From NCBI GenBank assembly GCA_030067055.1, contig JASJAL010000053.1:1-15654 (forward strand): 15,654 nucleotides of DNA, given 5' to 3'. Source of the DNA: Kiloniellales bacterium. Lineage in GTDB: Bacteria > Pseudomonadota > Alphaproteobacteria > Kiloniellales > JAKSBE01. Below, piece after piece: positions 1,832-15,654 of the stretch. Under the pieces are notes generated by a model. The model saw only the letters and a program-made list of their open reading frames with translations, searched no databases and was not told the DNA's origin. Both the position numbers and the translations under genes were made by a program. Each line of letters begins with the position of its first letter. Position 1 is the stretch's first letter.

Positions 1832-2518
1832 ATGCAGGCAAAGGACGTAATGACCACGAACGTAGTGACTGTCCAGATCGGTACCGGGGTTCCAGAGATT
1901 GCGCGTCTGCTGTTGAAGCACAGGATCAGCGCTGTTCCGGTCGTCGACTCGGACCAGCGTATCCTTGGGATCGTCAGCGAAGGCGACCTTATGCGGCGCA
2001 CAGAGACTGACACCGAGAGGCGGCATTCCTGGTGGTTGGAGGCAATGCTCTCCACAGAGGATAGGGCCAGGGAATACATCAAGGTTCATGGGCGGAAAGC
2101 CGGCGACGTGATGACCCGCGATTTGATCAGCGTCACTGAGGAAACACCGCTTTACGAAATCGCCGGACTCCTTGAGAAGCATCACGTAAAGCGAGTCCCG
2201 GTTACTCGCGATGGGCGGCTGATCGGAATCGTAAGCCGCGCGAATTTGCTGCACGGGTTTGCTGCCAAAGAAGCCAGGACCACCGGCCCCGGCTCTTCCG
2301 ATGACCAAACCATTCGAGAAAACCTGCTCCACACGCTCGCCAAGGAGGCAGGGCTCGATATGGCATTGATCAACGTGATCGTGAATGATGGAGTCGTGCA
2401 GCTATGGGGGCTTGTTGGCTCCGGCACTGAGAAGAAGGCAGCGCAAGTTTCGGCGGAGAGCACTCCGGGCGTGAAGCGCGTCGAGAACAATCTCGGCCAA
2501 GCGCCAACCGTGGTATAG
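1832..2518 (+). CDS. CBS-domain pair plus BON domain protein
   Basis: 228 residues from the preferred start. CBS domain 1 spans about 1-57 (AKDVMTTNVVTV, then GIVSEGDL), CBS domain 2 about 90-144 (GDVMTRDLISV, then GIVSRANLL), and a BON domain about 158-222 (a beta strand with DGVVQLWG, ending GVKRVENNL). CBS pairs bind adenosyl nucleotides; BON domains bind phospholipid or act as interaction modules. CBS-BON proteins are usually small stress or energy-state sensors of unknown target. An ATG at 1805 is in frame, but its GGAGG lies only one base away. The ATG at 1832 has AGGAG seven bases upstream and matches the usual family N-terminus. There is no catalytic domain and no membrane segment. 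It converges with the hydrogenase operon, so a functional link is not implied. Confidence 0.92.
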   Translation: MQAKDVMTTNVVTVQIGTGVPEIARLLLKHRISAVPVVDSDQRILGIVSEGDLMRRTETDTERRHSWWLEAMLSTEDRAREYIKVHGRKAGDVMTRDLISVTEETPLYEIAGLLEKHHVKRVPVTRDGRLIGIVSRANLLHGFAAKEARTTGPGSSDDQTIRENLLHTLAKEAGLDMALINVIVNDGVVQLWGLVGSGTEKKAAQVSAESTPGVKRVENNLGQAPTVV

Positions 2519-2524
2519 GCCTAT
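2515..2524. other. 10-bp palindrome spanning two converging stop codons
   Basis: ATAGGCCTAT is a perfect palindrome in which the TAG of the CBS-BON gene (plus, 2516-2518) and the TAG of the last operon gene (minus, 2521-2523) are mirror images. No separate terminator fits between the two genes. Confidence 0.6.
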
Positions 2525-2916
2525 GAAATGCGAGTTGCGCCGGCCGCGAGCAAAGGAGCACACAAAGGCAAGGCAGTGCCCCTCTCGTCAGCTAAAATCT
2601 CGCCACAGAACTGCTCTAGACTAAGCTCCCCCGGCGCCTCCAGAGCCTCCTCGTCTACAGGAAGGCGATTGCCGAGTTCGTCTTCCATGTGCACTCGGAG
2701 GACCCAATAATCCGCGCGGTGCTCGGGAACGAACTCAAGCGATCCGACCGCGGTCACTTCTTCGACGTCGGTCTCCTCGGAGCCGCCCTCAGTTGGGACG
2801 AGAGTTTTGTCCGTGACATACTCGCACAAGGCATTTGTTAGCAGCCCAGATCCGCACCGCTCGAAGGCCTGCTGAACCAGGTCCATCGATTCCCGTGTCC
2901 TCATGTTCTTTCGCAT
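2521..2916 (-). CDS. Unrecognised acidic protein, last gene of the hydrogenase operon
   Basis: 131 residues from the ATG at 2916, which has GGTGA eight bases upstream. A TTG at 2931 and ATGs at 2904 and 2886 are other in-frame choices; the 2886 start has GAGGA about eleven bases before it. I do not recognise the family. There are no membrane segments, no signal peptide and no paired-Cys motif. The middle is strongly acidic (clusters such as SEETDVEEV and HMEDELGN) and the sequence alternates short beta-like stretches (ADYWVLRVH) with charged turns, suggesting a small soluble cytoplasmic protein. It follows the maturation protease by 64 bases on the same strand, so it probably shares the transcript. 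Its role could be accessory (assembly, regulation) or unrelated. The steady codon pattern and absence of stops support a real gene. Confidence 0.6.
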   Translation of the reverse strand: MRKNMRTRESMDLVQQAFERCGSGLLTNALCEYVTDKTLVPTEGGSEETDVEEVTAVGSLEFVPEHRADYWVLRVHMEDELGNRLPVDEEALEAPGELSLEQFCGEILADERGTALPLCAPLLAAGATRIS

Positions 2917-2980
2917 AACGCAATTCACCAATGACTTGGCTCAAAGCGGCGCGAGCCATCTGCGGATCCGGTCAACGCTA

Positions 2981-3556
2981 CTAGACCTGCCAATCATTCA
3001 CGTGTTCGTGGAGGGCAGAGATCAAGGCTTCTTTGAGTAGTTCGACGGCCCGAGACCCCTCTTCGGAGAGCTCCGTGCCCAACCCGATATCGGCAGGTTG
3101 GATGGCCAGGACCACCAGGCGTGCCTGGGTCCTGGCCCTCAAGAAATCTGCGGTGGTTTGCAGCGAAAGGGCATGGGTGGAGACGTCAGAGGGACCAACG
3201 AGTTCCGGCTCGAGGATATTCAGCTCTCCCGGCGCCCCGCCAAAATCGACCGCGTCGAGAATGAGAATGGTATCCGGACGCGATCGCGCGACCATTTCGA
3301 GATAGTTCTCGGGGACCGCGCCAGCATCGATCACATGCACATTGGTTTGCCCTTCAAGCTGCTCGGCCAATAATGAGCCAACCCCGTCGTCGCGTCGAAA
3401 ACGATTGCCTACCCCCAGCACGACAACGCGACCCTTCATAAGGCTTTTCAAGCGTGAGAGAAACATAGCCTCCACAGCTTCGTCCCGTTTCCCAGGTGCT
3501 AAGATGTTTTCCTTTAGATGGCTCATCCTCAGCTTGGCCCAGCTCCGCCGCGCCAT
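2981..3556 (-). CDS. HycI/HyaD-type [NiFe]-hydrogenase maturation endopeptidase (peptidase M52)
   Basis: 191 residues from the first ATG, which directly follows the upstream stop codon. The protein has the family opening strand and loop VVLGVGNRFRRDDGVG (about 45-60), then IDAGAVPE (76-83), ILDAVDFGG (99-107) and STHALS (126-131). The Asp of the RDDG loop, D101 and H128 are the likely Ni-sensing ligands. The enzyme cuts the C-terminal tail from the large subunit after Ni-Fe insertion, and that substrate, with a tail, is encoded in the same operon. The start is uncertain. No Shine-Dalgarno precedes 3556, while the ATG at 3466 has GGAGG (only two bases away) and would give a 161-residue protein closer to the usual family length. 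An ATG at 3526 is also in frame. The function is secure. Confidence 0.9.
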   Translation of the reverse strand: MARRSWAKLRMSHLKENILAPGKRDEAVEAMFLSRLKSLMKGRVVVLGVGNRFRRDDGVGSLLAEQLEGQTNVHVIDAGAVPENYLEMVARSRPDTILILDAVDFGGAPGELNILEPELVGPSDVSTHALSLQTTADFLRARTQARLVVLAIQPADIGLGTELSEEGSRAVELLKEALISALHEHVNDWQV

Positions 3557-4168
3557 CTAGACGGCAAAAGCGGTCTTGCGCCGGCACTTGGGGCACTGGA
3601 GGGCCAGTCGATCGCCCCGTCGTACCTCCTCGCCTTCTCCTTTGACCCCCTGATCGACCAAACCAAGGTTCCGGCCGACAACCATCATCAGCGTCGGATT
3701 GGCGAAGGCCAGCGGGCCCAGCCGCTGGACCAGCCAGCGAATTTGGTCCACTGGCGCGAGCACCGACCCGCATAACTCGCAGAGGAGCAGATCTTTCTCG
3801 ACGCGCTCTTCGAAGTCCTCTGGAGAGAAACCAACGCAATCATATTCGTTGCTGAGTTTGATTCCCTGCTGCGTCGGACAGTAGCGTTCGCACTGTCCGC
3901 ACCAGATGCACGCGTCGAGATGCTGGACCAAACGGCGCTTCGGCGGCGTCGACTCGAGGTCATCGATCACATCGATACACTTGGGAGGGCAGACTTCAGC
4001 GCAGGCACCGCAGCCGATGCAGCCCGGTTCGTCGAATCTCGGCCGACCTCGGAAGCCCTCCACCGGTTGAAACGCTTCGCGCGGAAATTTCGTCGTGAAG
4101 GGCGGTGAAAGAACCGCCCGTATGGCCTGAGCGAGTATCCGGGGCTGCAGGAAACTCGGCAGTCTCAT
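3557..4168 (-). CDS. NuoI/EchF/HycF-like 2[4Fe-4S] ferredoxin subunit with extra four-Cys tail
   Basis: 203 residues. Two classical [4Fe-4S] motifs are present: C50-C53-C56-C60-P and C87-C90-C93-C97-P. This subunit carries electrons within the peripheral arm to the small subunit. After the cluster domain, C130-xx-C133 (CELCG) and C192-xx-C195 (CPKC) frame about 58 residues and may form a zinc-ribbon-like site, as in HycF/HyfH-type subunits. The start is the ATG at 4168: it has GAGGAG five bases upstream, forms an ATGA overlap with the preceding mrpG stop, and yields a conventional N-terminus (MRLPSFLQPRIL). The longer frame to 4237 overlaps mrpG and lacks support. The gene sits after the Mrp block and before the protease, apart from the core hydrogenase genes. 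Confidence 0.9.
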   Translation of the reverse strand: MRLPSFLQPRILAQAIRAVLSPPFTTKFPREAFQPVEGFRGRPRFDEPGCIGCGACAEVCPPKCIDVIDDLESTPPKRRLVQHLDACIWCGQCERYCPTQQGIKLSNEYDCVGFSPEDFEERVEKDLLLCELCGSVLAPVDQIRWLVQRLGPLAFANPTLMMVVGRNLGLVDQGVKGEGEEVRRGDRLALQCPKCRRKTAFAV

Positions 4169-4518
4169 TGCTTCTCCTCTGTCCGGCGGCGAACCGGAAA
4201 ATCCTCCTCGTAGTGATCCACGACACTCCCTTCCCATTGTTCGATGCCCGATCGATGAGCTGCACGGGCGAGGGCGTGGGCGGCTGTCGGCGATGTGATC
4301 AGGACGAAGGCGATGCAGATGATTCCCTTAACCGTACCCGGCAGCGAATCGAGCAGGATCAGACTGCCCACCAGGATGAAACAGGTGCCGACCGTCACGC
4401 ACTTCGTGGAGGCCTGAAGGCGGTTGTAGACGTCCGGGAAGCGCACCAGTCCAATACATCCGAAGATGTCGAACAAGATTCCGATCGCGATGATCGTCCC
4501 GCCTAGGATCTCAGTCAT
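4165..4518 (-). CDS. mrpG: MrpG/MnhG-like Na+/H+ antiporter subunit
   Basis: 117 residues with three predicted membrane helices (about 3-24, 38-57 and 62-85) and the family loop LVRFPDVYNRLQAS (24-37), followed by a charged cytoplasmic tail. MrpG is a small structural subunit of multi-subunit cation/proton antiporters and of Mbh hydrogenases (MbhC equivalent). The start is the ATG at 4518, eight bases inside the mrpF gene, with AGGGG a few bases upstream. Upstream in-frame codons to 4566 only read through the mrpF shadow. It overlaps the ferredoxin gene by four bases, so translation is probably coupled. Confidence 0.92.
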   Translation of the reverse strand: MTEILGGTIIAIGILFDIFGCIGLVRFPDVYNRLQASTKCVTVGTCFILVGSLILLDSLPGTVKGIICIAFVLITSPTAAHALARAAHRSGIEQWEGSVVDHYEEDFPVRRRTEEKQ

Positions 4519-4786
4519 GCAACCCCTTCCCGACCAGGTATTTCGCCAAGGCCAAGGTCCCAACAAAGCTGATCAGGGCCCAGACGATCGCCACATTCAG
4601 CAGGTACTCCTTGCCCAAGGCCGCGGTGAGAATACCGACGAACCCCACCATGACCGTGCCGAGGATGTCGATCGCCACCAAGCGATCCGGTGCCGTCGGA
4701 CCGCGAGCGATGCGATACAAGCACAGGGCACAACAGACCAGCAGTCCCGCCACGAATGTCGAGTAAAGCGCTCCAAAAACAGTCAT
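4511..4786 (-). CDS. mrpF: MrpF/MnhF-like antiporter subunit
   Basis: 91 residues, full length for the family, with three membrane helices (about 4-24, 33-55 and 62-82). The signature RGPTAPDRLVAIDILG (28-43) between helices 1 and 2 is diagnostic. It corresponds to MbhB of archaeal membrane-bound hydrogenase. An AGGTGG Shine-Dalgarno lies about seven bases before the ATG. It follows mrpE by 18 bases and overlaps mrpG by eight. It is one of the small subunits that pack against MrpE and MrpG in the ion-translocating membrane arm. Confidence 0.93.
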   Translation of the reverse strand: MTVFGALYSTFVAGLLVCCALCLYRIARGPTAPDRLVAIDILGTVMVGFVGILTAALGKEYLLNVAIVWALISFVGTLALAKYLVGKGLHD

Positions 4787-4804
4787 AATTGCCCACCTGC
4801 TGGT

Positions 4805-5443
4805 TTACTCGAGTATCTTCTGGATAAACCATTCGAAACGACCGAGGATCCGCTTCGCAGTTTCCTCTTCCTCCAAAGTCAGAACATTGATCCAGTGCAC
4901 ATAGAAGGTCCCATCTTCCGCGATGTCGACCGTCATTGTGCCTGGCGTGAGCGTGATGCTGTTGGCCAAAGCCGTCCGTGCCGATGCAGAACGAAGCTTC
5001 GAAGTCGCCCTTACGATGCCCGGGCGGATAGGCATGGCGGGGTGCAGCACGCGGTACGCCACATCGAGGTTCGCCTTGATGACGTAGTAGCCGAAAACAA
5101 GAAGGTAGACCGCTGCCCAGAAGTAGCGCACCGGATCGATCAGGCGACCGAAGCGCTCCGTGACGATCTGTCGCGCCACCAGGGCCACTAAGCCGGCAAC
5201 GATCAGGCCGGCTGAAATGTCACCCCAAAGCAGACGGCCATCGGACGGCGAAACGGGCCAGACCAACAGGATCCAAAAGACATATGCAAAAGCAAACAGC
5301 ACCATGCCCTTGGCGAAGCGATGATCGGCCATCGCAGCTCCCGAGATGTTATCGGGTTTGGCGCCGGAGAGCGTTTGGGACTTCTGCTCCTTGGGGCTTT
5401 GTTCGACGATCCTGGGCATCTGTTCTTCCACCGGACTCGACAC
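4805..5443 (-). CDS. mrpE: MrpE/MnhE-like antiporter subunit
   Basis: 212 residues from a GTG at 5443, ten bases after the mrpD stop. The core has membrane helices from about 45 onward and the MrpE hallmark NSITLTPGT (161-169), followed by a cytoplasmic beta-rich domain with YVHWINVLT. Residues 1-37 are hydrophilic and unusual for the family (rich in Q, E, S). An ATG at 5332 preceded by GGGAG would remove them and give 175 residues, nearer the normal MrpE length; the GTG has only a weak GCGGAA upstream. The protein corresponds to MbhA. The family call is secure and the start is not. Confidence 0.9.
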   Translation of the reverse strand: MSSPVEEQMPRIVEQSPKEQKSQTLSGAKPDNISGAAMADHRFAKGMVLFAFAYVFWILLVWPVSPSDGRLLWGDISAGLIVAGLVALVARQIVTERFGRLIDPVRYFWAAVYLLVFGYYVIKANLDVAYRVLHPAMPIRPGIVRATSKLRSASARTALANSITLTPGTMTVDIAEDGTFYVHWINVLTLEEEETAKRILGRFEWFIQKILE

Positions 5444-5453
5444 CTGGTTTCCG

Positions 5454-6905
5454 CTAAAGGTCGAAGGTCCCGCCGAGGAGGGCCTGCGCCGCTGGCCCTA
5501 TCAGGATCGGATCGCCTAGGCCGCCTATCACCAGCACCGAAAGCGCCATGCATCCGATCGCCAGGACGACCATCGCCGTCGCCATCAGACGAGGCTCAGC
5601 CAGTGGGGCCGTCGACACCGGCGACGCACCAAAGAACGCATATCGCTGCGCCTTGAGCTGGTATCCCAGGGTAACGACACTGACGCCGACGGCCACTGCG
5701 GCCAGGACATAGAATCCGCTTTGGACGCAAGCCACCACGATGATCAGCTTGCTCCAGAATCCGTTCAACGGGGGGATACCCGCAATCGACATGGACGCCA
5801 CCATAGAGGTCGCCCCGGTTACCGGCATTACCCGGTTCAGGCCACCTAGCCGCTTCAGGTCTCGATCGCCGGTGGCGTACTCCACGGCACCGGCATTGAG
5901 AAACAGCAGCGATTTGAACATCGAATGATTGACCAGATGATAGAGCGCGCCGACCACGCCGAGCGGTGTGCCGAGACCGAGTCCCAGCACGATGTATCCG
6001 ACCTGACTGATGCTGCTGTAGGCAAAGAGACGCTTCATATCCCACTGGCCCGTGGCTAGGAGCCCCCCGACGACCATGGAGATCACACCCAGCCATCGAA
6101 GCAACCCGAGCACGCCTTCGTCGGCTCCGAAGACGTTGTAGATCAGGCGCGCCACGACGTAGATTCCAATCGCCTTGATGAGTACGCCGGAGAGCATGGC
6201 AGAGACCGGCGCGGGCGCAGAAGGATGGGCATCGGGCAGCCAGGCATGGAAAGGCACGAGCGCGGCCTTCATGCTGAAGCCGCAGATGAACAGCGCGATC
6301 GCAAAGAGGAGCGACGGGTCCATGCCGCTGTCCGACGTGCGGCTCGCGATATGGGCCATGTTCAAGGTGCCGGTAACGCCATACACCAGTGCCACCCCGA
6401 TCAGGATGAAGCTGGATGCCAGCGTCCCCAGTATGGCGTATTTGAAGGAGGCTTCGAGTTCTTCGTGCTGACAGCCGAAGGCGACCAGGGCATACGAGGC
6501 CACTGCCGCGATCTCCATCATGACATAGAGGTTGAAGAGGTCGCCGGCCAGGATGACGCCGTTCATTCCCGCCACCAAGAAAAGGAACAGGCAGTAGAAA
6601 CGCCGCTTGTCCGTGTACCGCTGCATGTAGTCGACCGAATAAATGCCGGCGGCTAACCCGACCAGATTGACGGCGATCAGCAGCAAGGACGCGAGCGGAT
6701 CGAGTCGCAGGTCGATCCCGATCGGTGTGGGCCATGCTCCCACGTGGTACAAGGCCTCCTCGCCAACGCTGGCGAAGGCCAGGATCGTGAGGCCGACCAT
6801 GGTGGCGTTGGCCAAGCAGTCGGACACGATCGGCCGCCCACGCGCGACCAGCGGGAGTATGAAGGCCACTGCCAAGGGTATGGCTATGAGCAGGGGAATC
6901 AGCAA
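5454..6905 (-). CDS. mrpD: MrpD/NuoN-like ion-translocating antiporter subunit
   Basis: 483 residues, about 14 membrane helices, normal length for MrpD/MbhH. Residues used for ion transfer in this superfamily are present: E131 in TM5 (LYVMMEIAAVASY), K213 in TM7 (SMKAALVPFHAWLPDAHP), K244 in TM8 (GVLIKAIGIY), H323 and K331 (YHLVNHSMFKSLLF) and K386 in TM12 (LNGFWSKLII). It should carry one of the two ion pathways of the membrane arm. The start is a TTG at 6905 with AAGGA ten bases upstream; no better in-frame start is seen. It lies 34 bases after mrpC and ten before mrpE, in the canonical C-D-E order. Confidence 0.94.
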   Translation of the reverse strand: MLIPLLIAIPLAVAFILPLVARGRPIVSDCLANATMVGLTILAFASVGEEALYHVGAWPTPIGIDLRLDPLASLLLIAVNLVGLAAGIYSVDYMQRYTDKRRFYCLFLFLVAGMNGVILAGDLFNLYVMMEIAAVASYALVAFGCQHEELEASFKYAILGTLASSFILIGVALVYGVTGTLNMAHIASRTSDSGMDPSLLFAIALFICGFSMKAALVPFHAWLPDAHPSAPAPVSAMLSGVLIKAIGIYVVARLIYNVFGADEGVLGLLRWLGVISMVVGGLLATGQWDMKRLFAYSSISQVGYIVLGLGLGTPLGVVGALYHLVNHSMFKSLLFLNAGAVEYATGDRDLKRLGGLNRVMPVTGATSMVASMSIAGIPPLNGFWSKLIIVVACVQSGFYVLAAVAVGVSVVTLGYQLKAQRYAFFGASPVSTAPLAEPRLMATAMVVLAIGCMALSVLVIGGLGDPILIGPAAQALLGGTFDL

Positions 6906-6939
6906 TTCACTGACTGTCCTTGTATCTCAGATACTTGGC

Positions 6940-7287
6940 CTATCCTCGCAGCCTTGTCATCTCGCCGACATCGAAAGTCCCGTAGCGCTCATAAAGCCGG
7001 ACACACAGAGCCACCAAAAGCGCGAGAACACCCAAACCGATGACGATGGATGTGAGCACGAGGGCCTGTGGAAGTGGATCCACCGCGGCTCCCGAAAAAA
7101 CCGTTGGCGTAGCTCCTGGATCCATGATGGGCGGCGTCCCTTCGCTTCGGTAGCCAATAAGAATCAGAAGCAGGTGGACGCCGTGCTGCATGATCAGGAG
7201 GCTAATCACGATCTTGACCGTATTCCGGTTCGCGATGACGCCGTAGAGCCCGACGAGGATCAACAGGAAGCACAAGAGATAGATCAT
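6940..7287 (-). CDS. mrpC: MrpC/MnhC/NuoK-like antiporter subunit
   Basis: 115 residues with three membrane helices (about 2-20, 26-46 and 73-97) and the family motif DPLPQALVLTSIVIG (70-84). It is the NuoK-like small subunit (MbhG equivalent) next to the antiporter chain, with acidic and His residues usual for the half-channel region. The ATG overlaps the mrpB stop as ATGA. Its Shine-Dalgarno, AGGAGG five bases away, is supplied by the codons for the acidic tail of MrpB. It is followed by mrpD after 34 bases. Confidence 0.93.
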   Translation of the reverse strand: MIYLLCFLLILVGLYGVIANRNTVKIVISLLIMQHGVHLLLILIGYRSEGTPPIMDPGATPTVFSGAAVDPLPQALVLTSIVIGLGVLALLVALCVRLYERYGTFDVGEMTRLRG

Positions 7288-7766
7288 AGGTCCTCCTCTT
7301 CCTCCTCGCTGCTACTGGGGAGGATCTGAAAGGCGGCCAGCACCGTGAACGCCAGAAACAGTGAACTGGCCACTTTCAATCCAAGGCCGATGTTCGCGAT
7401 GGGCATGATCCCCCCACTGAACAGCGTGAAACGCGCCCGCTCCGATGTGCCGATGAAATTCTCGAGGAAGGTACCGGTGGCCCAGATTGCGACCAAGGCG
7501 AGGGCCAGGAAAAGCAGAACGCCGATGCTATCCAGGGCTGATGCGGCTTTCTTGCTGAAGAAGCTCAGACCCTGCTCCTGTCCCCCTGCAAGGGTCAGCA
7601 GGATGAACCCGCAAGCGATGATGACGCCCCCGGCAAACCCCCCGCCAGGCGTAATGTGCCCGTAGAGTACGATGTAGATGCCGTAGGTCAGGATGATGCC
7701 GTTGAGCCAACGGGCCACAGTTCGGACAATTTCACCCATACCTTCGCCGGAGGAACGTTTCTTCAT
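7284..7766 (-). CDS. mrpB: MrpB/MnhB-like antiporter subunit
   Basis: 160 residues, about four membrane helices. The family signature GHITPGGGFAGG (36-47) follows helix 1, and a second conserved segment FSGGIMPIANIGLGLKV (116-132) precedes the last helix. It corresponds to MbhF. The C-terminus is a run of serines and glutamates (SSSEEEEEDL). The ATG overlaps the stop of the preceding MbhD/E-like gene by four bases (ATGA) without a clear Shine-Dalgarno, so translation is probably coupled. Confidence 0.93.
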   Translation of the reverse strand: MKKRSSGEGMGEIVRTVARWLNGIILTYGIYIVLYGHITPGGGFAGGVIIACGFILLTLAGGQEQGLSFFSKKAASALDSIGVLLFLALALVAIWATGTFLENFIGTSERARFTLFSGGIMPIANIGLGLKVASSLFLAFTVLAAFQILPSSSEEEEEDL

Positions 7767-8332
7767 TCTTGTCTCGCTTCGTCTTGATCGGGAATAGTGG
7801 CCGCTCGCGCCTTCCGGCGAAGGATTGCGAGGGCGCCCAAGACAGCGCAGAACAGGACGGTCGCCTCACCGAGGGTGTCGTAGGCGCGGAAGTCGAGCAA
7901 AACCGCTGTCACGATATTCGGCGCCCCGGTACTGACCAGACCATACTGCAAGTACCTGCTAGAAGGGGCATCGGCGAACCTCTCCATCACCGAGCTGCCG
8001 AACTCCGGAAAGTCCGTAAATGCTTGGAATCCGAAGAGCCCGACGGCCGCGACGAACGTCGTCGCTGCAATCAGACCAAAGAACCGACGTCGGCCAACCG
8101 CCATTTTGGCGTCGCGGCCGATGGTCGCCCGAATCAAGATCACGAGGCCGATGACTTCGACGCCGATCTGTACGATGGCAACATCCGGCGCGCCCAGGAA
8201 CAGAAAGGCAATCGTCAACAGAAACCCTACAGCACCGACGCTGACGACCGAGAACAACAAGCGCGAAGTCCCCACTGCGACAATCGCCGCGGCGATCATG
8301 AACAAAGTCAACACGGCAATAACTTCAATCAT
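7763..8332 (-). CDS. MbhD + MbhE-like subunit (equivalent of the MrpA C-terminal region)
   Basis: 189 residues, about five to six membrane helices. Residues 1-75 match the DUF4040/MbhD module (GAPDVAIVQIGVEV at 47-60, with a NuoJ-like bent helix). Residues 85-175 match MbhE, with NIVTAVLLDFRAYDTLGEA (139-157) as signature. In Mrp antiporters these modules form the C-terminal third of MrpA; in P. furiosus Mbh they are two proteins. Here they are one gene placed right after the NuoL-like gene, overlapping it by eight bases. Together the two genes amount to a split MrpA. The start ATG at 8332 lacks a strong Shine-Dalgarno. Confidence 0.9.
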   Translation of the reverse strand: MIEVIAVLTLFMIAAAIVAVGTSRLLFSVVSVGAVGFLLTIAFLFLGAPDVAIVQIGVEVIGLVILIRATIGRDAKMAVGRRRFFGLIAATTFVAAVGLFGFQAFTDFPEFGSSVMERFADAPSSRYLQYGLVSTGAPNIVTAVLLDFRAYDTLGEATVLFCAVLGALAILRRKARAATIPDQDEARQE

Positions 8333-10193: not shown

Positions 10194-10209
10194 GCGTGCG
10201 CCCTTGCCA

Positions 10210-11430
10210 TCATTCAAAGGGCAGCTGTGGCTCTTGCCAGCCCGTTTGTTTCTTCAAGTGCTCCGTTTTCTCTTGCGATAGGCGGATGAGGTCTCGGCCA
10301 TCCCAGACCCGGTCGCCGCTCGTCCGGTCCACGGCGCTCGCCATGCGTTCGGTACAGCAGTAGCAAGGATCTACCGCTGCCAGGATGATCGTGGCGTCGG
10401 CCACAGTCGCGCCCAGAACCGTCACGGTATTTGTCGGCACATTCATGAAGCTGGGCGCCCGCACCTTGTGGCGGACCGGACGGTTGCTGCCATCGCTGCG
10501 GATATAGTGGAAGACCTCGCCGCGAGGCGCTTCGTAGTGGCCGATGCCTTCGCCCGGCTCAACGTTTGGAGGGTTGGAGTCAATCGGCCCATTTCGGGTT
10601 TTGAGTCTTTCCAGACACTGTTCGATGATCTTGATCGATTCGAACATTTCCAGAATTCGAACGACGGCCTTGTCGAAGACGTCGCCGTTGTCGCGGGTGA
10701 TAACGTTCCAATCGACCAGACCGTAGGCGGCGTGTGGATGATCGCGGCGCACGTCGATGTCGACTCCGGAGGCTCGGGCGGTCGGGCCGAGCGCGCCAAA
10801 CTCGATCGCCTGCTGTTTGGTCAAGACGCCGACCCCTTGGGTGCGCGCATGCAACAGCGGATCGTCCAAGACGGCGCCCCGGAACATATCGATGGGCCCT
10901 TTGAGCCCATCCAGCATCTTTCCGATCTCCGGGATACTTTCCGGCAGGATGTCCCGGCGGACGCCACCCGGCTTCATCATGCCGTAGTGATTTCGATTGC
11001 CGGTGATGAGCTCCAGGATATTGAGCAGGTCCTCGCGGAACCGCCACGCCCACATCCAGATCGTGTTGAAGCCCAGGAAATGCCCGGCCAGACCCAGCCA
11101 GAGCAAGTGCGAATGGAGGCGTTCCATTTCCGCAATCGTTGAACGGATGAATAACGCGCGCTCCGGCACTTCGATTTCGCCGGCCTCCTCGATCGCCTGC
11201 ACGCAAGCGATCGGATGGGATGTCGAGCAAATTCCGCAGATGCGCTCGACCATGAATATCGTTTCCTCGAAGTCTTTGGACTCGGAAAGCTTCTCGATAC
11301 CTCGGTGGTTGTAGCCAAGCTCGATATCCAGATGGACGACCTGTTCGCCTTCCACGTGCAACTTGAAGAACTCTGGCTCCTCTTGAAGAGCATGATACGG
11401 GCCGATTGGTATGATCGTTCGCTTGGTCAC
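10210..11430 (-). CDS. Group 4 [NiFe]-hydrogenase large (catalytic) subunit, EchE/MbhL/HycE-like
   Basis: 406 residues. All four Ni-Fe cysteines are present: RICGICSTSH (63-72, C65 and C68) and DPCYCCTER (354-362, C356 and C359). The extra C358 is non-canonical. Complex I NuoD lacks these pairs, so this is a hydrogenase catalysing reversible H+/H2 conversion on the cytoplasmic side. After R362 a 44-residue tail remains (MASAVDRTSG to QLPFE), comparable to the tail removed from HycE, and implies processing by the protease of this operon. Length fits the Ech/Mbh type without a fused NuoC domain; that domain is the preceding gene. The start is a GTG at 11430 with AAGGAG ten bases upstream. It could be of HydDB group 4d or 4g, but assigning it needs a tree. 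Confidence 0.96.
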   Translation of the reverse strand: MTKRTIIPIGPYHALQEEPEFFKLHVEGEQVVHLDIELGYNHRGIEKLSESKDFEETIFMVERICGICSTSHPIACVQAIEEAGEIEVPERALFIRSTIAEMERLHSHLLWLGLAGHFLGFNTIWMWAWRFREDLLNILELITGNRNHYGMMKPGGVRRDILPESIPEIGKMLDGLKGPIDMFRGAVLDDPLLHARTQGVGVLTKQQAIEFGALGPTARASGVDIDVRRDHPHAAYGLVDWNVITRDNGDVFDKAVVRILEMFESIKIIEQCLERLKTRNGPIDSNPPNVEPGEGIGHYEAPRGEVFHYIRSDGSNRPVRHKVRAPSFMNVPTNTVTVLGATVADATIILAAVDPCYCCTERMASAVDRTSGDRVWDGRDLIRLSQEKTEHLKKQTGWQEPQLPFE

Positions 11431-11437
11431 GGCCGCC

Positions 11438-11878
11438 TCACTCCTTGTAGTCCCGACGCAAGGGGTATTTCCCTTCGGGCCAATCGTCGCGCAGCAGCAA
11501 ATGCCGCAGGTCCGGGTGATTGCGAAATCTGATGCCTAGCAACTCCCACATTTCCCGCTCGATCCATTCGGCCGCCGGGCAAAGGGGTGCGATAGACTCG
11601 ATCTCAGGGTTTTCGCGGTTGAGCCGCGTACGCACGGTGACGACACACCCCAGCGAGTCCAGGGCCCAGTGGTACAGCACTTCGATGGCAGTGGGGGTGT
11701 CGACACCCGTCGCAATCTGAAACCGCGCCTGGAGATCCTGGAACATCAGTCGACTGGCCTCGGGCACGTCATTTGGCGACACATCAATGAACACCCGCTT
11801 CACCGATCTCTCCTCGAGGCCAAGAAGTCGGTCCTGAAGCGTTGCCTTTATGCGGCTGAGGACATCTTCACGGGTCAC
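11438..11878 (-). CDS. NuoC/EchD/MbhK-like 30-kDa-type subunit
   Basis: 146 residues. The N-terminal alpha/beta domain is followed by the NuoC signature EREMWELLGIRF (107-118), HPDLRHLLLRDDW (121-133) and PLRRDY (139-144). It has no redox cofactor; in Ech, Mbh and complex I this subunit packs against the large subunit and helps bind it to the arm. The GTG start at 11878 is well supported by AGGAG seven bases upstream. It lies 24 bases after the small subunit gene and seven before the large subunit, the standard small-NuoC-large order. Confidence 0.93.
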   Translation of the reverse strand: MTREDVLSRIKATLQDRLLGLEERSVKRVFIDVSPNDVPEASRLMFQDLQARFQIATGVDTPTAIEVLYHWALDSLGCVVTVRTRLNRENPEIESIAPLCPAAEWIEREMWELLGIRFRNHPDLRHLLLRDDWPEGKYPLRRDYKE

Positions 11879-11902
11879 GCGGTTCTCCTTCCGACGCGGG
11901 CG

Positions 11903-12397
11903 CTACGCCTTGGCCGCCGTTGGCGCCGGCAGCATTGCCGGCTCGCTCTCCTTCGCTCGCGCCTTCGGCACGATCTCGCCGCTTCGCAGGCCATCAACGA
12001 CCTTGAGCACCGCCGCGATGATGGCCTCCGGCTTGGGCGGACATCCCGGCAGGTATGCGTCGATTGGAATGTAGTTGCCGGGAGGGCCGTCCCAGTTGTA
12101 GGAGCCCTGAAAAATAATCCCAGTGCACGGACAACCTCCAATGGCGATTACCACCACCGGTCTCGGCGCCTCCTCGTAGAGCCGCTTGGCGCGGATGGCT
12201 GCCTTTTTGTTGAAGATGCCCGACAGGAGGATCAGATCCGCGTGGCGGATACTCCCAACCAGGACGATGCCGAAGCGCTCGAGGTCGTACTTCGGCGTCA
12301 GCGCGTCGAGGATCTCGATGTCGCAGTTGTTGCAGGCACTGCCGGCGAGATGAAACACGTTAAGGGATCGCGACAGGACCTGAGTAGCGAAGCTCAT
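11903..12397 (-). CDS. Group 4 [NiFe]-hydrogenase small subunit, NuoB/EchC/MbhJ-like
   Basis: 164 residues. The proximal [4Fe-4S] ligands are C22 and C25 (GSACNNCDIEIL, 19-30), C89 (GGCPCTG, 87-93) and C119 (LPGCPPKPEAI, 116-126). The spacing is the single-cluster pattern of Ech/Mbh/complex I, without the extra clusters of uptake-hydrogenase small subunits and without a Tat signal, so it acts in the cytoplasm. It hands electrons from the ferredoxin subunits to the Ni-Fe site. The C-terminal 20 residues are Ala/Pro/Lys-rich and probably disordered. The ATG is four bases after the NuoH-like stop. In the CxxC region it reads NNC rather than the commoner NGC. Confidence 0.95.
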   Translation of the reverse strand: MSFATQVLSRSLNVFHLAGSACNNCDIEILDALTPKYDLERFGIVLVGSIRHADLILLSGIFNKKAAIRAKRLYEEAPRPVVVIAIGGCPCTGIIFQGSYNWDGPPGNYIPIDAYLPGCPPKPEAIIAAVLKVVDGLRSGEIVPKARAKESEPAMLPAPTAAKA

Positions 12398-12401
12398 GAT
12401 C

Positions 12402-13352
12402 TCACCATCCCATCCATGCCAGGGCGGCGGCGATCAGCGCCAGCGCGGTCATTGGTCCCCAGAACAAGCGCACGGCCTGGTCCGTTCGCAGTCTCGGGGT
12501 GGTGTTGCGCAAGACGACGATCACGGCGATCAGCGAGGCCCAGAGGCCGAATCCGAGTAGCTTGCCCGCCCATCCTCCGCTGACGATCGACCCGCCGAGG
12601 TACACCACGACCAGGAAGACCGGCAGGGTGAATAGCATCATTGCCCGCGTCAGCTTGAACATGGCCAGCGGCGGCCCAGAGTATTCGATGTAGGCACCGC
12701 CGCTGAGTTCGCCTTCCGCCTCAGGCATGTCGAAGGGCACGAGCGTCAACTTGGCTTGCGTGCATACGATGGCAACCAAAAGAGCCAACATCCCGGAGGG
12801 CAGCGCCACCGCCCCTGTTGCCGCCAAGAGATCTCCCAATCGGATGCTGTGGACCTGAATTACCGGCACCAGAACAGCCAGCACGAACGGCAACTCGTAG
12901 GCGATCATAAGCTTGATCTCTCGGCTGCCGCCGAGCGAGGCCAAAGGGTTGCGCGAGGCAAAGGCGCCCAGGATCACGGCCAGGGCGGGCATCACGAGCA
13001 GGTACAGAAGCACGATCAGGTCCCCGACGAAGGTGGCTTGCGGATGCAAGAGCGCGCGCCAAAGAATCGTCGAAGCCAAGGCGACCGCGGCCAAGCCGAT
13101 CAGCGGCGCAAGCAGGAACAGTCCGATCGAGCCGCCGGCCGGAACGCAGGTGTCTTTGATGAGTAGCTTGCCGATATCGTAAAAGGGTTGAAAGAAGGGC
13201 GGACCCACTCGCATCTGCACCCGGGCCGTGACCTTTCGGTCGACCCAGCTGGTGATCAACCCGGCCGCGCCCGTGAACAGCAGGCCCGGGAAGATGAGAA
13301 ACTCCAGCAGGGTGGCGGCGGTGTTCAGGGTGACTCCTCCCGCTTGATCCAC
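12402..13352 (-). CDS. NuoH/HyfC/EchB-like membrane anchor subunit
   Basis: 316 residues from a GTG at 13352, about eight membrane helices. Characteristic cytoplasmic loops are present: RVGPPFFQPFYDIGKLL (48-64) and EAEGELSGG with EYSG (211-226), the acidic loop that couples the redox arm to ion translocation in NuoH. It binds the hydrogenase module to the membrane and to the antiporter chain. The start is odd. The GTG has no Shine-Dalgarno, while GGGAGGA lies about seven bases before an in-frame CTG at 13328 that overlaps the ferredoxin stop as CTGA. A CTG start would give 308 residues. Confidence 0.93.
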   Translation of the reverse strand: MDQAGGVTLNTAATLLEFLIFPGLLFTGAAGLITSWVDRKVTARVQMRVGPPFFQPFYDIGKLLIKDTCVPAGGSIGLFLLAPLIGLAAVALASTILWRALLHPQATFVGDLIVLLYLLVMPALAVILGAFASRNPLASLGGSREIKLMIAYELPFVLAVLVPVIQVHSIRLGDLLAATGAVALPSGMLALLVAIVCTQAKLTLVPFDMPEAEGELSGGAYIEYSGPPLAMFKLTRAMMLFTLPVFLVVVYLGGSIVSGGWAGKLLGFGLWASLIAVIVVLRNTTPRLRTDQAVRLFWGPMTALALIAAALAWMGW

Positions 13353-13813
13353 TTGGGCGATCGCACGGCCAGGTGGTCATCGATGATGTGAAGCTGAGGC
13401 TCATCGGGATCCACTTCGCGATACGCAAGGGCCCCGAGACTGCAACTGCGCGCGCAGGGTGGCTCGGCTTCGATTGGGCCAAGACAGAAGTTGCAGGGCG
13501 TCACGTAGAACGGGACCATGTCGGGATAGATCGTCCCGAAGGGGCAGGCGTGCACACACAACTTGCAGCTCACGCAGCGCAGGTTATGCCGTTTCAACAC
13601 GCCATCGCTCTGGCGCTCCAGGGCGTTGTAAGGACAGGCGTCGATGCAGCTTGGCTCCTCGCAGCGGCGGCAGATCAGCTGGAAAGTCGCCCGCTCGCGC
13701 AAAGCCAGGACACCATTATCGCTCGCACGGGGACGATAGAAGTAACTGCAGGTCACGCCACAGCGATCGCATTGATCGCAGATATCCAGATCGATGACCA
13801 AGCGCTTGCTCAT
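13325..13813 (-). CDS. HycB/HydN/CooF-like polyferredoxin, four [4Fe-4S] motifs
   Basis: 162 residues with sixteen cluster cysteines: C12-C15-C18-C22, C48-C51-C56-C60, C80-C83-C86-C90 and C107-C110-C120-C124. This is the DmsB/HycB arrangement, in which motifs pair 1 with 4 and 2 with 3. Such proteins pass electrons between a catalytic partner (formate dehydrogenase, CO dehydrogenase or, here, probably the HydB-HydG pair) and the hydrogenase. No Tat or Sec signal is present, so it is cytoplasmic. The ATG lies three bases after the HydG-like stop, with only a weak Shine-Dalgarno; the stop overlaps the NuoH-like gene. Confidence 0.94.
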   Translation of the reverse strand: MSKRLVIDLDICDQCDRCGVTCSYFYRPRASDNGVLALRERATFQLICRRCEEPSCIDACPYNALERQSDGVLKRHNLRCVSCKLCVHACPFGTIYPDMVPFYVTPCNFCLGPIEAEPPCARSCSLGALAYREVDPDEPQLHIIDDHLAVRSPKWIKREESP

Positions 13814-13816
13814 GGG

Positions 13817-14647
13817 TTAAGCGTCCCAAAGTTGCGGGTTGGACTGAATCTCTTCGTAGGAGAAGACGGGTCCGTCCTTACAAACGTAGTATCGGCCAAG
13901 TCGGCAATGCCCGCACATGCCCACCCCGCAGCTCATGTTCCGCTCCAGAGACAGATAAATGTTCTCGGGACGGTAGCCGCGCTCCAGGAGCTTCAGCACG
14001 GTGAATTTCATCATCAACGGAGGACCGCACATCACAGCGACGCCGTCCTCCGGATTACAGTCGAGATTTTCCTCGGTCAGGATCGTCGGCAGCACGCCAA
14101 CGTGGCCGTCCCACCGGGGATCGCCCACGTCTACGGTCAACATGACATCAAGGGCATCGCTCCGTCCCCATCCCCTCAGCGCGGCGTCGCGGAAGACGAT
14201 GTCGTCGGGCGTCCGCGCGCCATAGCGAATGATCACGCGCTCGTAGGCGTCGAGGTCTTCCAATAGCGCCATGAGGAAGGCTCGCAAAGGGCCCACCCCA
14301 CAGCCGCCACCGGCAATCAGGACCTCCCGCCCGCGGAAGTCGTCGATCGGATAGGGGCGACCCAAGGGCCCGCGGATGCCGACCTCCGAGCCCGGCCGCA
14401 TCGCATGCAACTGCTCCGTGACGCGGCCGACTCGCATGATGGTGATGTCCATGCGCTCGGTGATTCGGGGCGAAGAGGACGGAGTGAAGGGCGCCTCGCC
14501 AACGCCAGGCACGAACAATTCGACGAACTGGCCGGCCTTGAAGGCCACCGGGTCCCTTGGGCGAATGGTAAACGTCTTGATCGAAGGGGTCTCGTCTTCT
14601 ACCCGCTCAATCGTCGCTGGAACTGGCATGTATGGCGCCAGACTCAT
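13817..14647 (-). CDS. HydG/AsrB/NfnA-like FAD-NAD(P) and [2Fe-2S] subunit
   Basis: 276 residues. The order is a ferredoxin-reductase-type FAD barrel (1-105, with APFTPSSSP at 52-60 and GPLGRPYPID at 93-102), an NAD(P)-binding domain (VLIAGGGCGVGPLRAFL at 109-125; MCGPP at 206-210) and a C-terminal [2Fe-2S] site with C240, C245, C248 and C256. This is the gamma subunit of sulfhydrogenases (HydG), related to AsrB and to NfnA of the bifurcating transhydrogenase. It should exchange electrons between NAD(P)H and iron-sulfur partners. Preference for NADH or NADPH cannot be read reliably. The ATG has AGAGG seven bases upstream and overlaps the HydB-like gene by 41 bases. Confidence 0.94.
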   Translation of the reverse strand: MSLAPYMPVPATIERVEDETPSIKTFTIRPRDPVAFKAGQFVELFVPGVGEAPFTPSSSPRITERMDITIMRVGRVTEQLHAMRPGSEVGIRGPLGRPYPIDDFRGREVLIAGGGCGVGPLRAFLMALLEDLDAYERVIIRYGARTPDDIVFRDAALRGWGRSDALDVMLTVDVGDPRWDGHVGVLPTILTEENLDCNPEDGVAVMCGPPLMMKFTVLKLLERGYRPENIYLSLERNMSCGVGMCGHCRLGRYYVCKDGPVFSYEEIQSNPQLWDA

Positions 14648-15654
14648 CGACTGCCCTCTTCAGCACTTTGCGGATGTCAATCTTGCCGATGCAGGCTTCC
14701 GTGCAGCGCCCGCATCCGTCGCAGGCGTAGCGTCCAACCACCTGCGGAAAGAAAATGAACTTCTTGTCGAAGCGATTGCGTAACCGCTGGGCTCGCCGCG
14801 GACGGGGATCGCCGCCGGCCGTACAGGCAAAGCTGGGAAACAGGCAGGAATCCCATTGTTTGCAGCGGGCGGGATTGCCGTGCCCATCGACACCGTCGAC
14901 CAGAAAAAAGCAGTGGCAGGTGCAGCAGATGAAGTTGCATGCGCCGCACTCGACACAATCGGCGGCGAAGTCCTCCCAAAGGTCAGAGTCGAAGGCCTTC
15001 TCCACCGCCTGTCGGAAATCCGTCCCCAGCCTCAGCCCGGATGCTGCAGCGTTGTCCACGAGCTTGCCATACATCGTGTTGCGCTGGCTCTCGCGTGCCT
15101 CGAGCACGTCATCATCAGCCGGCTTCAGGTACCCCTCGGCTTCCCGAAGCAAATCGGCACCCCGATCCGTTCCGCTTTCCAGGACGTAGCCCTTCGGCGT
15201 CGGAGAAATGTTTATGTCGAAACCCTTCGTCGGATGCGGCTGCTCGCCGATCGCGGGACAGAAACATACGTCCAGGAACCCGGTACAATCACAGGATACC
15301 AGGATCGTTTTCTCGCGGGCTTCCGCATAGAGTGGATCCTGCATGTCTCGGTTCAAGAAGACCTGGTCGTGGATCTCTAGCCCGGAGAGATCGCAGTTCT
15401 TCACGCCAAACACGATGCGCTCGCTCAGCGGCTTGCCGGCCGCCGGATCTCTCCACGCACCGAGATACTCTCGCGGACGAAACAGCAAGGATTTCAGCGG
15501 CTCCACCGGTCGGTAGGCGCCCAGGGTGTGTCGTCCCGGATCCCAGGCGTCGGCCCTCACAAGCCGATAGCCTTCCTCCTCCTCGGTCAGGGCATACACG
15601 ACACGGCTCTCGGTGAGGGCCGAGAGCGCGTCATCCACGCTGTAATCGTCGCGG
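14607..15654 (-). CDS. HydB/AsrA-like iron-sulfur subunit, 5' end beyond the window
   Basis: The frame is open to the right edge. A GTG at 15638 would give 343 residues, but codons upstream (RDDYS) look coding and family members begin slightly earlier, so the true start is probably outside. The N-terminal domain carries the HydB/AsrA-type segment VKNCDLSGLEIHDQVFL (79-95, in GTG numbering) and CDCTGFLDVCFC (116-127). The C-terminal ferredoxin domain has C228-C231-C234-C238 (followed by C239 and C241) and C306-C309-C312-C316. In sulfhydrogenase and anaerobic sulfite reductase this beta subunit links the flavoprotein to the catalytic part. Here it is joined to a group 4 enzyme. It is the first operon gene visible; more may lie upstream. 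Confidence 0.92.
   Translation of the reverse strand, partial: RDDYSVDDALSALTESRVVYALTEEEEGYRLVRADAWDPGRHTLGAYRPVEPLKSLLFRPREYLGAWRDPAAGKPLSERIVFGVKNCDLSGLEIHDQVFLNRDMQDPLYAEAREKTILVSCDCTGFLDVCFCPAIGEQPHPTKGFDINISPTPKGYVLESGTDRGADLLREAEGYLKPADDDVLEARESQRNTMYGKLVDNAAASGLRLGTDFRQAVEKAFDSDLWEDFAADCVECGACNFICCTCHCFFLVDGVDGHGNPARCKQWDSCLFPSFACTAGGDPRPRRAQRLRNRFDKKFIFFPQVVGRYACDGCGRCTEACIGKIDIRKVLKRAVDESGAIHASSSDD

Follow-up and report, generated by a model that had tools for sequence, protein, structure and literature searches.

The window, the whole stretch of 15,654 bases that was analysed, holds a tight set of 17 genes on the minus strand, running from its right edge to base 2981 (Table 1). The gene order along that strand is HydB-HydG-HycB/CooF-NuoH-NuoB-NuoC-NuoD-NuoL-MbhDE-MrpB-C-D-E-F-G-HycF/NuoI-HycI, with Pfam or NCBIfam matches for every subunit named and a spacing of -73 to +34 bases between neighbours. 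The initial annotation had described a group 4 [NiFe] hydrogenase, MrpB-G and a HydB-HydG pair in about 17 nearly contiguous same-strand genes. This description holds: Pfam and NCBIfam find the set, related loci conserve it, and the HydG and ferredoxin genes (13817 to 13813) lie only 3 bases apart with no gap, as judged by sequence spacing. Because the gene set is conserved in related loci, its chance assembly is excluded. The operon had been drawn too long at 2521..15654, as its conserved part stops at HycI (2981); a further frame of 136 aa (2521-2931), which begins 49 bases beyond HycI, lies outside it and has no match in Pfam, NCBIfam or the 80 related loci.

Table 1. Genes of the hydrogenase operon, in order of transcription
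Subunit	Position	Strand	Length and main evidence
HydB / AsrA-like	14607..15654	-	343 aa from first in-window start; Pfam Fer4_22 1.5e-22
HydG / AsrB-like, FAD + NAD(P) + [2Fe-2S]	13817..14647	-	276 aa; Pfam NAD_binding_1, DHODB_Fe-S_bind, FAD_binding_6
HycB/CooF-type ferredoxin	13325..13813	-	162 aa; motifs for four [4Fe-4S] clusters
NuoH/HycD-like membrane anchor	12402..13352	-	316 aa; Pfam NADHdh 2.6e-59
NuoB/HycG-like small subunit, proximal [4Fe-4S]	11903..12397	-	164 aa; Pfam Oxidored_q6 5.3e-23
NuoC-like	11438..11878	-	146 aa; Pfam Complex1_30kDa 2.9e-28
[NiFe] hydrogenase large subunit	10210..11430	-	406 aa; Pfam Complex1_49kDa, NiFeSe_Hases
NuoL-like antiporter subunit, MrpA N-terminal-part position	8325..10217	-	630 aa; Pfam Proton_antipo_M 4.5e-51
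MbhD + MbhE (MrpA C-terminal part)	7763..8332	-	189 aa; Pfam MbhD 1e-11, MbhE 2.6e-10
MrpB	7284..7766	-	160 aa; Pfam MnhB 1.8e-26
MrpC	6940..7287	-	115 aa; Pfam Oxidored_q2 2.7e-26
MrpD	5454..6905	-	483 aa; Pfam Proton_antipo_M 1.8e-68; NCBIfam antiporter subunit D models below cut-offs
MrpE	4805..5443	-	212 aa; Pfam MNHE 8.1e-37
MrpF	4511..4786	-	91 aa; Pfam MrpF_PhaF 1.2e-16
MrpG	4165..4566	-	133 aa; Pfam PhaG_MnhG_YufB 8.6e-26
HycF/NuoI-like	3557..4237	-	226 aa; two [4Fe-4S] motifs + C-terminal CxxC...CxxC pair
HycI-family hydrogenase maturation protease	2981..3556	-	191 aa; Pfam HycI 2.1e-19; TIGR00072 above cut-off

Two Ni-Fe CxxC pairs in the NuoD-like large subunit, together with NuoB-, NuoC- and NuoH-like partners, place the enzyme in group 4. 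The large subunit carries the ligand motifs CGIC and DPCYCC (C65, C68, C356 and C359, kept in 80/80 aligned rows) and matches MbhL (PDB 6cfw_L, 7.4e-81) and HycE (7z0s_E, 5.7e-80); a C-terminal tail follows the second motif and measures 33 to 58 aa in 79/80 relatives. In the NuoB/HycG-like subunit, C22, C25, C89 and C119 are kept in 75/75 rows. HydB, whose reading frame is open as far as the window edge and whose N-terminus lies beyond it, and HydG match the beta and gamma subunits of sulfhydrogenase 1 (PDB 9nez_B, 1.3e-32; 9nez_C, 2.9e-54), with 15 of 19 HydB cysteines kept in 55/55 rows and HydG C240, C245, C248 and C256 in 57/57. The HycB/CooF-type ferredoxin, matched by PDB 8c0z_C (2.9e-13) and then by HycB (7z0s_B, 4.4e-12), is the likely connector from HydBG to the hydrogenase; clusters 2 and 3 are present in all 66 rows, the cysteines of cluster 4 in 62 to 66 and those of cluster 1 in 52 to 65. 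For the HycF/NuoI-like subunit the closest NCBIfam model is the formate hydrogenlyase Fe-S subunit (1.5e-25, below the model's cut-off), and its 12 cysteines, 8 for clusters and 4 extra, are found in 52/52 rows.

The NuoL-like gene and MbhD/E stand in what we take to be the MrpA slot of an Mrp operon, so that the set can be read as MrpA in split form and then MrpB-G. Counted in this way, the antiporter is complete from MrpA to MrpG, with MrpB-G assigned by Pfam. Pfam and NCBIfam place no second flavoprotein in the operon, and the window holds neither an FdhF-type molybdopterin formate dehydrogenase (Pfam) nor AsrC. An Rfam scan gave no match above gathering scores, while a scan of bases 2300-3200 found no promoter and three terminator-like sites (1.0 expected). 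A plasmid search with 7,355 of the window's 15,654 bases as query found no near DNA match, and the best large-subunit match was 43%.

Conservation and genome context

Comparison with 80 related loci supports a single, jointly inherited operon in which a group 4 [NiFe] hydrogenase is combined with a full Mrp set and a HydB-HydG diaphorase. HydB, HydG and the ferredoxin occur together in 47 of the 48 loci whose sequence extends 5.5 kb or more upstream of the large subunit, L004 being the single one without HydBG, and NuoL, MbhDE and MrpB-G occur in 45/48 loci having enough downstream sequence. Loci with HydB and HydG come from 16 phyla, and the gene set is found in metagenome-derived genomes. 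In two Elusimicrobia loci (L031 and L033) the Mrp genes are missing and the HydBG linkage is kept. The [NiFe] ligands are invariant and nearly all Fe-S ligands are too, with ferredoxin cluster 1 missing in some relatives. All HydG sequences of the cluster fall on one side of a branch (100/98) from the references, namely four group 3b sequences, one AsrB and one that is presumably Flx-type, its database record reading FAD/NAD(P)-binding protein. Distances correlate with those of the large subunit at 0.866 for HydG, 0.862 for HydB and 0.870 for NuoB (35 loci and the window). The large-subunit tree has four references only, two of them on very long branches, and its 49 'HydBG-linked' rows include L004, in which no HydBG was seen, and L008 and L009, whose contigs stop before HydBG.

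The MrpD correlation was at first about 0.27 and rose to 0.66 after a position filter that dropped 3/38 loci; the low initial value suggested confusion with the NuoL-like paralogue. Kin of molybdopterin oxidoreductases occur in 3/80 loci (L021-L023), and such an enzyme was set aside as a general component on that count; the insert between HydG and ferredoxin in L020 contains no molybdopterin enzyme domain.

Twelve relative genomes, chosen by us from the 80 loci, were searched for other partners of HydBG. None has its sole HydB/HydG pair elsewhere with a catalytic partner of its own: in 9/12 the cluster contains the only HydB to pass the cut-off, and the remaining 3/12 have an extra HydB with its own HydG beside a group 3b-type hydrogenase. 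Sharing of HydBG with another hydrogenase was set aside on the count of nine. A role in sulfite reduction was likewise set aside, as AsrC is above cut-off in 0/12 genomes; weak sub-cut-off matches occur in 12/12 and in 13/14 control genomes. The cluster is the sole PF00374 match in 6/12, and [FeFe] hydrogenases were found in 0/12. Two Kiritimatiellae genomes contain, some 14 kb off, another group 4 cluster that has NuoL/MrpD-like subunits and no HydBG. Pyruvate:ferredoxin oxidoreductase (TIGR02176) is above cut-off in 4/12, with partial sub-cut-off matches in the rest. In three one-contig Omnitrophota records the cluster is the sole hydrogenase found, Rnf is present and there is no NuoF-type NADH module, a combination that fits a need to vent electrons.

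Some members of the family show signs of regulation by an NADH sensor. A Rex gene or operator stands ahead of the operon in 24/52 relatives, with the gene directly upstream in 13/49, and an operator with at most one mismatch precedes hydB in 15/52 against 0.18 expected; five sets of control regions taken from within operons each gave 0. In the 11 loci closest to the window (L001-L003, L006, L007, L010-L014 and L027) neither gene nor operator was found, even at two or fewer mismatches for the site; the window's own operon promoter falls beyond its edge. Rex control is no proof of NADH as the substrate, because the Rex motif also precedes a CO-linked Ni-CODH/ECH operon (available part of PMC13077300).

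Proposed reaction and its alternatives

Our preferred reading, to which we give a probability of roughly 0.6, is a single membrane complex that would catalyse NAD(P)H + H+ <-> NAD(P)+ + H2 coupled to movement of Na+ and/or H+. It would be built like formate hydrogenlyase, with HydBG in place of FdhF and a whole Mrp antiporter as membrane arm. NAD(P)H would bind HydG, and electrons would pass through FAD and the HydG [2Fe-2S] cluster to the HydB clusters, then along the HycB-like connector with its four clusters, and over the two HycF-like clusters and the small-subunit cluster to the [NiFe] site. In formate hydrogenlyase, electrons are known to travel from FdhF to the hydrogenase by way of HycB and HycF, according to the accessible text of PMC9474812. 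We infer the electron path from the homologous E. coli formate hydrogenlyase and P. furiosus sulfhydrogenase 1, its ligands being present in the predicted proteins, and likewise infer docking, substrate, direction and ion. The loop after the nucleotide-binding strand gives no readable preference for NADH or NADPH.

The initial annotation had proposed an ion pump linking NAD(P)H, ferredoxin and H+/H2. An NAD(P)H module, a hydrogenase and an Mrp set do share one operon, but ferredoxin input, through the HycF/NuoI-like subunit, is no more than a possibility, and pumping driven by NADH -> H2 is energetically implausible by calculation. At ordinary H2 levels that reaction sets free next to no energy, and the likeliest mode would therefore be disposal of NADH as H2, with inward ion flow pushing electrons to more negative potential and so assisting H2 release. 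At low H2 and with a reduced NADPH pool the complex might pump, and with excess H2 it could run in reverse.

Such reversal could also be the normal direction: the complex would then be an energy-conserving H2:NAD(P)+ oxidoreductase that passes electrons from H2 to NAD(P)+ and uses the potential drop to expel ions. The anatomy would be identical, and at 1-10 kPa H2 and an E(NADH) of -280 mV the drop is 75-105 mV, which for two electrons equals 0.8 to 1.2 ions at 180 mV. We consider uptake unlikely, however, as the Rex genes or operators of 24/52 relatives fit a role at high NADH, that is NADH consumption (with Rex no substrate proof), and the three Omnitrophota records fit electron venting. A confurcating enzyme would need two donors at once to make H2, NAD(P)H feeding in through HydG and reduced ferredoxin through the HycF-like subunit, with the ferredoxin share covering the cost of pumping. 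The operon does contain a HycF/NuoI-like subunit, and an electron pair from ferredoxin at -500 mV would suffice to move 1.3 ions at 10 kPa H2, rising to 2.9 at 0.1 Pa. By Pfam and NCBIfam the operon is nonetheless without a second flavoprotein, and in formate hydrogenlyase, whose donor is FdhF, the HycF-type subunit has a relay function too (as far as the source is available); we regard confurcation as quite unlikely.

It is also conceivable that the hydrogenase is of the Mbh type and uses ferredoxin only, HydBG being a separate soluble enzyme of polysulfide or sulfite reduction that merely shares the operon. HydDB lists group 4g as putatively ferredoxin-coupled (PMC5037454, available part), and the HydBG pair is found beside group 3b hydrogenases, AsrC and Hdr-type genes and is therefore a mobile module. 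Against this stand the linkage in 47/48 loci and its retention in the Mrp-less Elusimicrobia, a HydG clade of its own with a divergence matching that of the large subunit, the lack of AsrC above cut-off in the 12 genomes, and a HycB-type connector directly after HydG, so that we hold this division of labour to be improbable.

A purified or characterised HydBG-Mrp-group 4 complex was not found among the open papers examined, and the accessible portions of PMC11323493, PMC12057145, PMC10376724 and PMC12361115 contain no HydBG-linked group 4 complex. To that extent the initial annotation was right that no characterised example was known, but the composition itself had already been reported, and called 'enigmatic' in 2019, in the available text of PMC6349859. 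Mrp-linked group 4g hydrogenases are taken as ion-gaining ferredoxin oxidisers (PMC8542988, PMC11257099 and PMC5037454, as partly available); PMC11257099 ascribes a group 4g hydrogenase to the genus of Endomicrobium proavitum. We tentatively suggest, at somewhat less than even odds, a complex-I-like machine with protons replacing quinone as acceptor: much of 'ferredoxin-coupled' 4g would actually be NADH-linked via a formate-hydrogenlyase-type relay, a Na+/H+ gradient would force NADH electrons onto protons, and many uncultured anaerobes would vent NADH as H2 without electron bifurcation. If a dedicated NADH module drives 4g, the ion balance and H2 limits would shift, and might even switch sign, in reconstructions of Omnitrophota, Elusimicrobiota, Kiritimatiellota and other lineages. 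The complex would then show, in a present-day organism, an NADH module that a relay connects to a [NiFe] site and a complete Mrp antiporter. Stages of this kind have been discussed in accounts of how complex I arose, but the diaphorase pair here is not NuoEF.

Comparison with known systems

E. coli formate hydrogenlyase (group 4a, HycB-G and FdhF) shares with the window the four-cluster HycB connector, a HycF-type subunit with an extra CxxC pair, HycG-, HycE- and HycD-like subunits, a HycI-type protease and the C-terminal tail of the large subunit. Its HycB and HycF relay is present, with family matches below NCBIfam cut-offs, whereas FdhF and HycC are replaced in the window by HydBG and a full Mrp arm. 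P. furiosus Mbh (group 4d, PDB 6cfw) shares the Mrp-derived arm with MbhD/E, and MbhL is the best match in the PDB, narrowly ahead of HycE; MbhL, however, ends in DPCxxC plus three residues with no tail. Group 4d Mbh, defined by ferredoxin as electron donor and by the lack of a diaphorase module, is not known to have HycB or HydBG and has one antiporter-like subunit rather than two; HydB, HydG and HycB-like genes occur in 47/48 loci here. Group 3b sulfhydrogenase (P. furiosus SHI, PDB 9nez) shares HydB and HydG, aligned over the cluster and FAD/NAD(P) motifs. It is soluble, with other large (HydA) and small (HydD) subunits and no known membrane arm; the HydA model scores 21 bits in the window against a cut-off of 880, and the small subunit is NuoB-like. 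AsrABC and the Hdr-linked Flx-type operon use the same diaphorase pair as a plug-in module with other catalytic partners.

Two further reported clusters compare with that of the window. L037 is the Ca. Saelkia tenebricola metagenome-assembled genome of PMC8542988 and has the same cluster, with a large subunit 65% identical to that of the window. The available part of that paper calls its hydrogenase HydDB group 4g and Mrp-linked, and describes group 4g Mbh in two ways, as an oxidiser of ferredoxin in Cloacimonadota and, in Omnitrophota, as a redox valve together with Mrp; its main text nowhere contains the string HydB. The Saganbacteria RX5A cluster, as described in the accessible part of PMC6349859, shares group 4 [NiFe] subunits, Mrp subunits, CooF and AsrA/AsrB with the window, and additionally has a molybdopterin oxidoreductase.

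Composition and distribution of the operon

The window's right edge opens an operon of 17 minus-strand genes with intergenic gaps of -73 to +34 bases, and Pfam and NCBIfam naming bears out the composition proposed in the initial annotation, a group 4 [NiFe] hydrogenase with an Mrp arm and a HydB-HydG pair (HydBG). The span of 2521..15654 given there is to be shortened, since the 17-gene set ends at 2981. A 136-aa frame following the HycI gene belongs to no Pfam or NCBIfam family and has no match among those listed for 80 related loci; it was left out of the operon. NuoL/MrpD-type subunits typically carry a glutamate in helix 5; at this position, the NuoL-like subunit has glycine ('FWG'), as do all 12 rows inspected (window included) of 67 aligned NuoL-like sequences, and the window's MrpD retains the glutamate.

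Features of the window, with coordinates and content
Feature	Coordinates	Strand	Content
Operon	2981 to right edge	minus	In order: HydB (gene continues past the edge), HydG, ferredoxin with four cluster motifs, NuoH-, NuoB-, NuoC- and NuoD-like subunits; further, NuoL-like antiporter, MbhD/E, MrpB to MrpG, HycF/NuoI-like subunit, HycI protease
NuoL-like subunit	8325-10217	minus	Part of the operon
Frame after HycI	2521-2931		Outside the operon
CBS-CBS-BON protein gene	1805-2518	plus	Convergent with the operon end
GNAT acetyltransferase gene	389-955	minus	

A protein search returned at least 8000 candidates, all with E up to 0.001, with 120 matches listed. Among the matches listed there, the closest named protein belongs to a Kiloniellales MAG (94%); among the loci, the closest is L001, of a Rhodospirillaceae MAG (83%). 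The window is accordingly of probable alphaproteobacterial origin. A contig scan confirmed 265 relatives, of which the best 80 were analysed. All 80 are MAG records and, being the most query-like, yield counts that carry no information on remoter group 4 enzymes. Gene order, traced by tblastn with the window's proteins, is shared by nearly all of them. HydB, HydG and the ferredoxin occur in 47 of the 48 loci whose sequence reaches 5.5 kb or more ahead of the large subunit, the one exception (L004) having a NuoH matched in part only and a phosphatase gene next upstream. NuoL, MbhDE and MrpB-G are present in 45 of the 48 loci that extend 7.5 kb or more beyond it. Mrp genes are absent in two of the three exceptions (L031 and L033); in the third, a one-contig Omnitrophota record (L055, also L085), HydB to the large subunit lie at 1-6.5 kb and the Mrp half, with just the end of NuoL, near 640 kb, through either rearrangement or misassembly. 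An insert separates HydG from the ferredoxin in L020, and additional NuoL/MrpD-like matches occur in L029, L033 and L071.

Of the 80 loci, 57 show both HydB and HydG, and many of the others are too short. Going by organism names, with some phyla assigned by us from genus or class, the 57 represent Pseudomonadota, Verrucomicrobiota, Kiritimatiellota, Lentisphaerota, Fibrobacterota, FCPU426, Planctomycetota, Nitrospirota, Bacillota, Omnitrophota, Elusimicrobiota, Latescibacterota, Eisenbacteria, Aerophobetes, Fermentibacterota and Mcinerneyibacteriota. The HydBG-linked hydrogenase-Mrp machine probably exists and is likely to be common among uncultured bacteria.

HydBG as a probable partner of the hydrogenase

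A phylogeny of 63 HydG sequences separates the 57 from this cluster, the window's among them, from the references (four group 3b, one Flx-type, one AsrB) by a branch supported at 100/98; the references are few and long-branched. Over 35 loci and the window, distances of the large subunit correlate at 0.866 with those of HydG, 0.862 with HydB, 0.870 with the small subunit and 0.66 with MrpD, so HydBG follows the large subunit as closely as the small subunit does. Judged from sequence, HydBG and the hydrogenase are one unit by descent.

Cofactor sites were counted in alignments of the window with loci passing a length filter. Conserved throughout are the four Ni-Fe ligands (80 of 80 rows), the four cysteines of the HydG [2Fe-2S] cluster (57 of 57), the small-subunit cluster ligands (75 of 75), and eight cluster cysteines plus an extra CxxC pair in the HycF-like subunit (52 of 52). 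In HydB, 15 cysteines are invariant in 55 of 55 rows, and C116, C239, C259 and C272 of the window vary. Clusters 2 and 3 of the HycB-like ferredoxin are invariant in 66 rows; individual cysteines of cluster 1 are absent in up to 14.

The initial annotation held that HydB/HydG found elsewhere with their own partner would count against its reading. We picked 12 genomes from behind the loci, their completeness not given; Fer4_22 above cut-off occurs once and inside this cluster in nine, and twice in the other three (G002, G011 and G012), where the second HydB has its own HydG alongside and adjoins a large subunit 22 to 31% like the window's. This distant partner (L002 1-5600, L081, L082) is taken as group 3b. 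In L002 the separate pair directly adjoins the group 4 operon. Neither AsrC above cut-off nor [FeFe] hydrogenase was found in any of the 12 genomes; a NuoF-type NADH_4Fe-4S domain is present in five, and RnfC and pyruvate:ferredoxin oxidoreductase above cut-off in nine and four, respectively. PF00374 has one match only in six genomes, including the one-contig records G006, G007 and G008, which have RnfC and no NuoF-type domain. Two Kiritimatiellae genomes (G004 and G005; L083, L084) provide a partial contrast case: a second group 4 cluster about 14 kb away, its large subunit 44% identical, has NuoL/MrpD-like subunits and no HydBG. Nor does this second cluster include a separate MrpB, each of the two genomes having a single MnhB match.

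Signs of Rex control and the probable direction of electron flow

In 13 of the 49 loci examined, the gene immediately preceding hydB is that of the redox regulator Rex, its identity resting on Pfam in L022, L038, L059 and L066 and on NCBIfam in L038. A scan for the Rex operator (12 fixed bases, 300 bases before hydB, 52 loci, expectation from shuffles) found a site with at most one mismatch in 15 loci against 0.18 expected, with two mismatches in 19 against 2.5, and with three in 25 against 15. Five sets of control regions from within the operon yielded none when one mismatch was allowed (0 of 52, 52, 50, 43 and 40) and 0 to 2 each when two were. In three of the 13 rex-bearing loci (L038, L047 and L055), a site matching the operator to within one mismatch sits where rex begins; gene and operator occur together in four loci, and one or other in 24 of 52. 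As Rex releases DNA at high NADH, according to a passage of PMC2883068, these signs of Rex control in part of the relatives point to a role in NADH consumption. Caution is due because a Rex motif is likewise found before a CO-driven Ni-CODH/ECH operon (an excerpt of PMC13077300) and the 11 loci nearest the window have no site with two mismatches or fewer. Other genes before hydB encode a cyclic-nucleotide-binding protein in L027 (Pfam) and apparently in L060 (by eye), and an IclR-type regulator in L001.

The potentials of NADH, NADPH and ferredoxin and the 180 mV gradient used here are textbook values. At pH 7, electron transfer from NADH at -280 mV to H2 is computed to gain 14 mV at 1 Pa and to cost 46 mV at 100 Pa. 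Ion pumping driven by electrons passing from NADH to H2 is energetically implausible: at -280 or -320 mV, NADH yields less than one ion per electron pair at every H2 level computed, at best 0.92 at 0.1 Pa. With so little energy available, the machine would need ion inflow, NADPH at low H2, ferredoxin as co-donor or reverse running. A reduced NADPH pool at -370 mV would gain 104 mV at 1 Pa, and ferredoxin at -500 mV 115 to 263 mV from 10 kPa to 0.1 Pa; alternatively, H2 would reduce NAD(P)+. We infer that gradient-assisted disposal of NADH as H2, in which inflowing ions would help push the electrons, is the likeliest mode, given the signs of Rex control and the several genomes in which this is the sole hydrogenase found and a NuoF-type module is lacking.

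Comparison with known systems

No biochemical study of a HydBG-linked group 4/Mrp complex was found among the open-access papers listed by the searches. The earlier remark that no characterised example was known holds to that extent, although the composition has been printed, and the arrangement was thus glimpsed at least once: an excerpt of PMC6349859 describes in Saganbacteria RX5A a group 4 [NiFe] hydrogenase with Mrp subunits, a molybdopterin enzyme, CooF and AsrA/AsrB, terms the cluster enigmatic and supposes an Mbh-like function. Loci L021-L023 (two labelled Clostridia) likewise have an added molybdopterin oxidoreductase, encoded ahead of rex and hydB; L021 also has FdhD, and a second Fer4_22 protein adjoins the molybdopterin enzyme there, as in Saganbacteria.

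HydDB gives group 4g as of undetermined role and putatively ferredoxin-coupled (passage of PMC5037454). The enzyme of Ca. Saelkia tenebricola, whose MAG (L037) carries HydBG, was entered as 'Group 4g, Mrp-linked' (part of PMC8542988), and an Endomicrobium enzyme as 4g and presumably ferredoxin-dependent (part of PMC11257099); the Endomicrobia locus L071, whose enzyme may be the same one, carries HydBG. New here are the breadth of the arrangement, its co-inheritance, a relay like that of formate hydrogenlyase, the indications of Rex control and the case that pumping powered by NADH fails energetically, so that ferredoxin coupling in 4g enzymes of this kind is worth testing.

The best match of both HydG and HydB is P. 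furiosus sulfhydrogenase 1 (PDB 9nez), the large subunit resembles MbhL and HycE to about the same degree, and HycB is one of several matches to the ferredoxin. Electrons from FdhF in the formate hydrogenlyase of E. coli reach HycG and HycE via HycB and HycF, the latter carrying an extra metal (excerpt of PMC9474812). HydBG would feed the hydrogenase through a relay of the same HycB/HycF type, which is common to both systems, and the window has HydBG in the place of FdhF.
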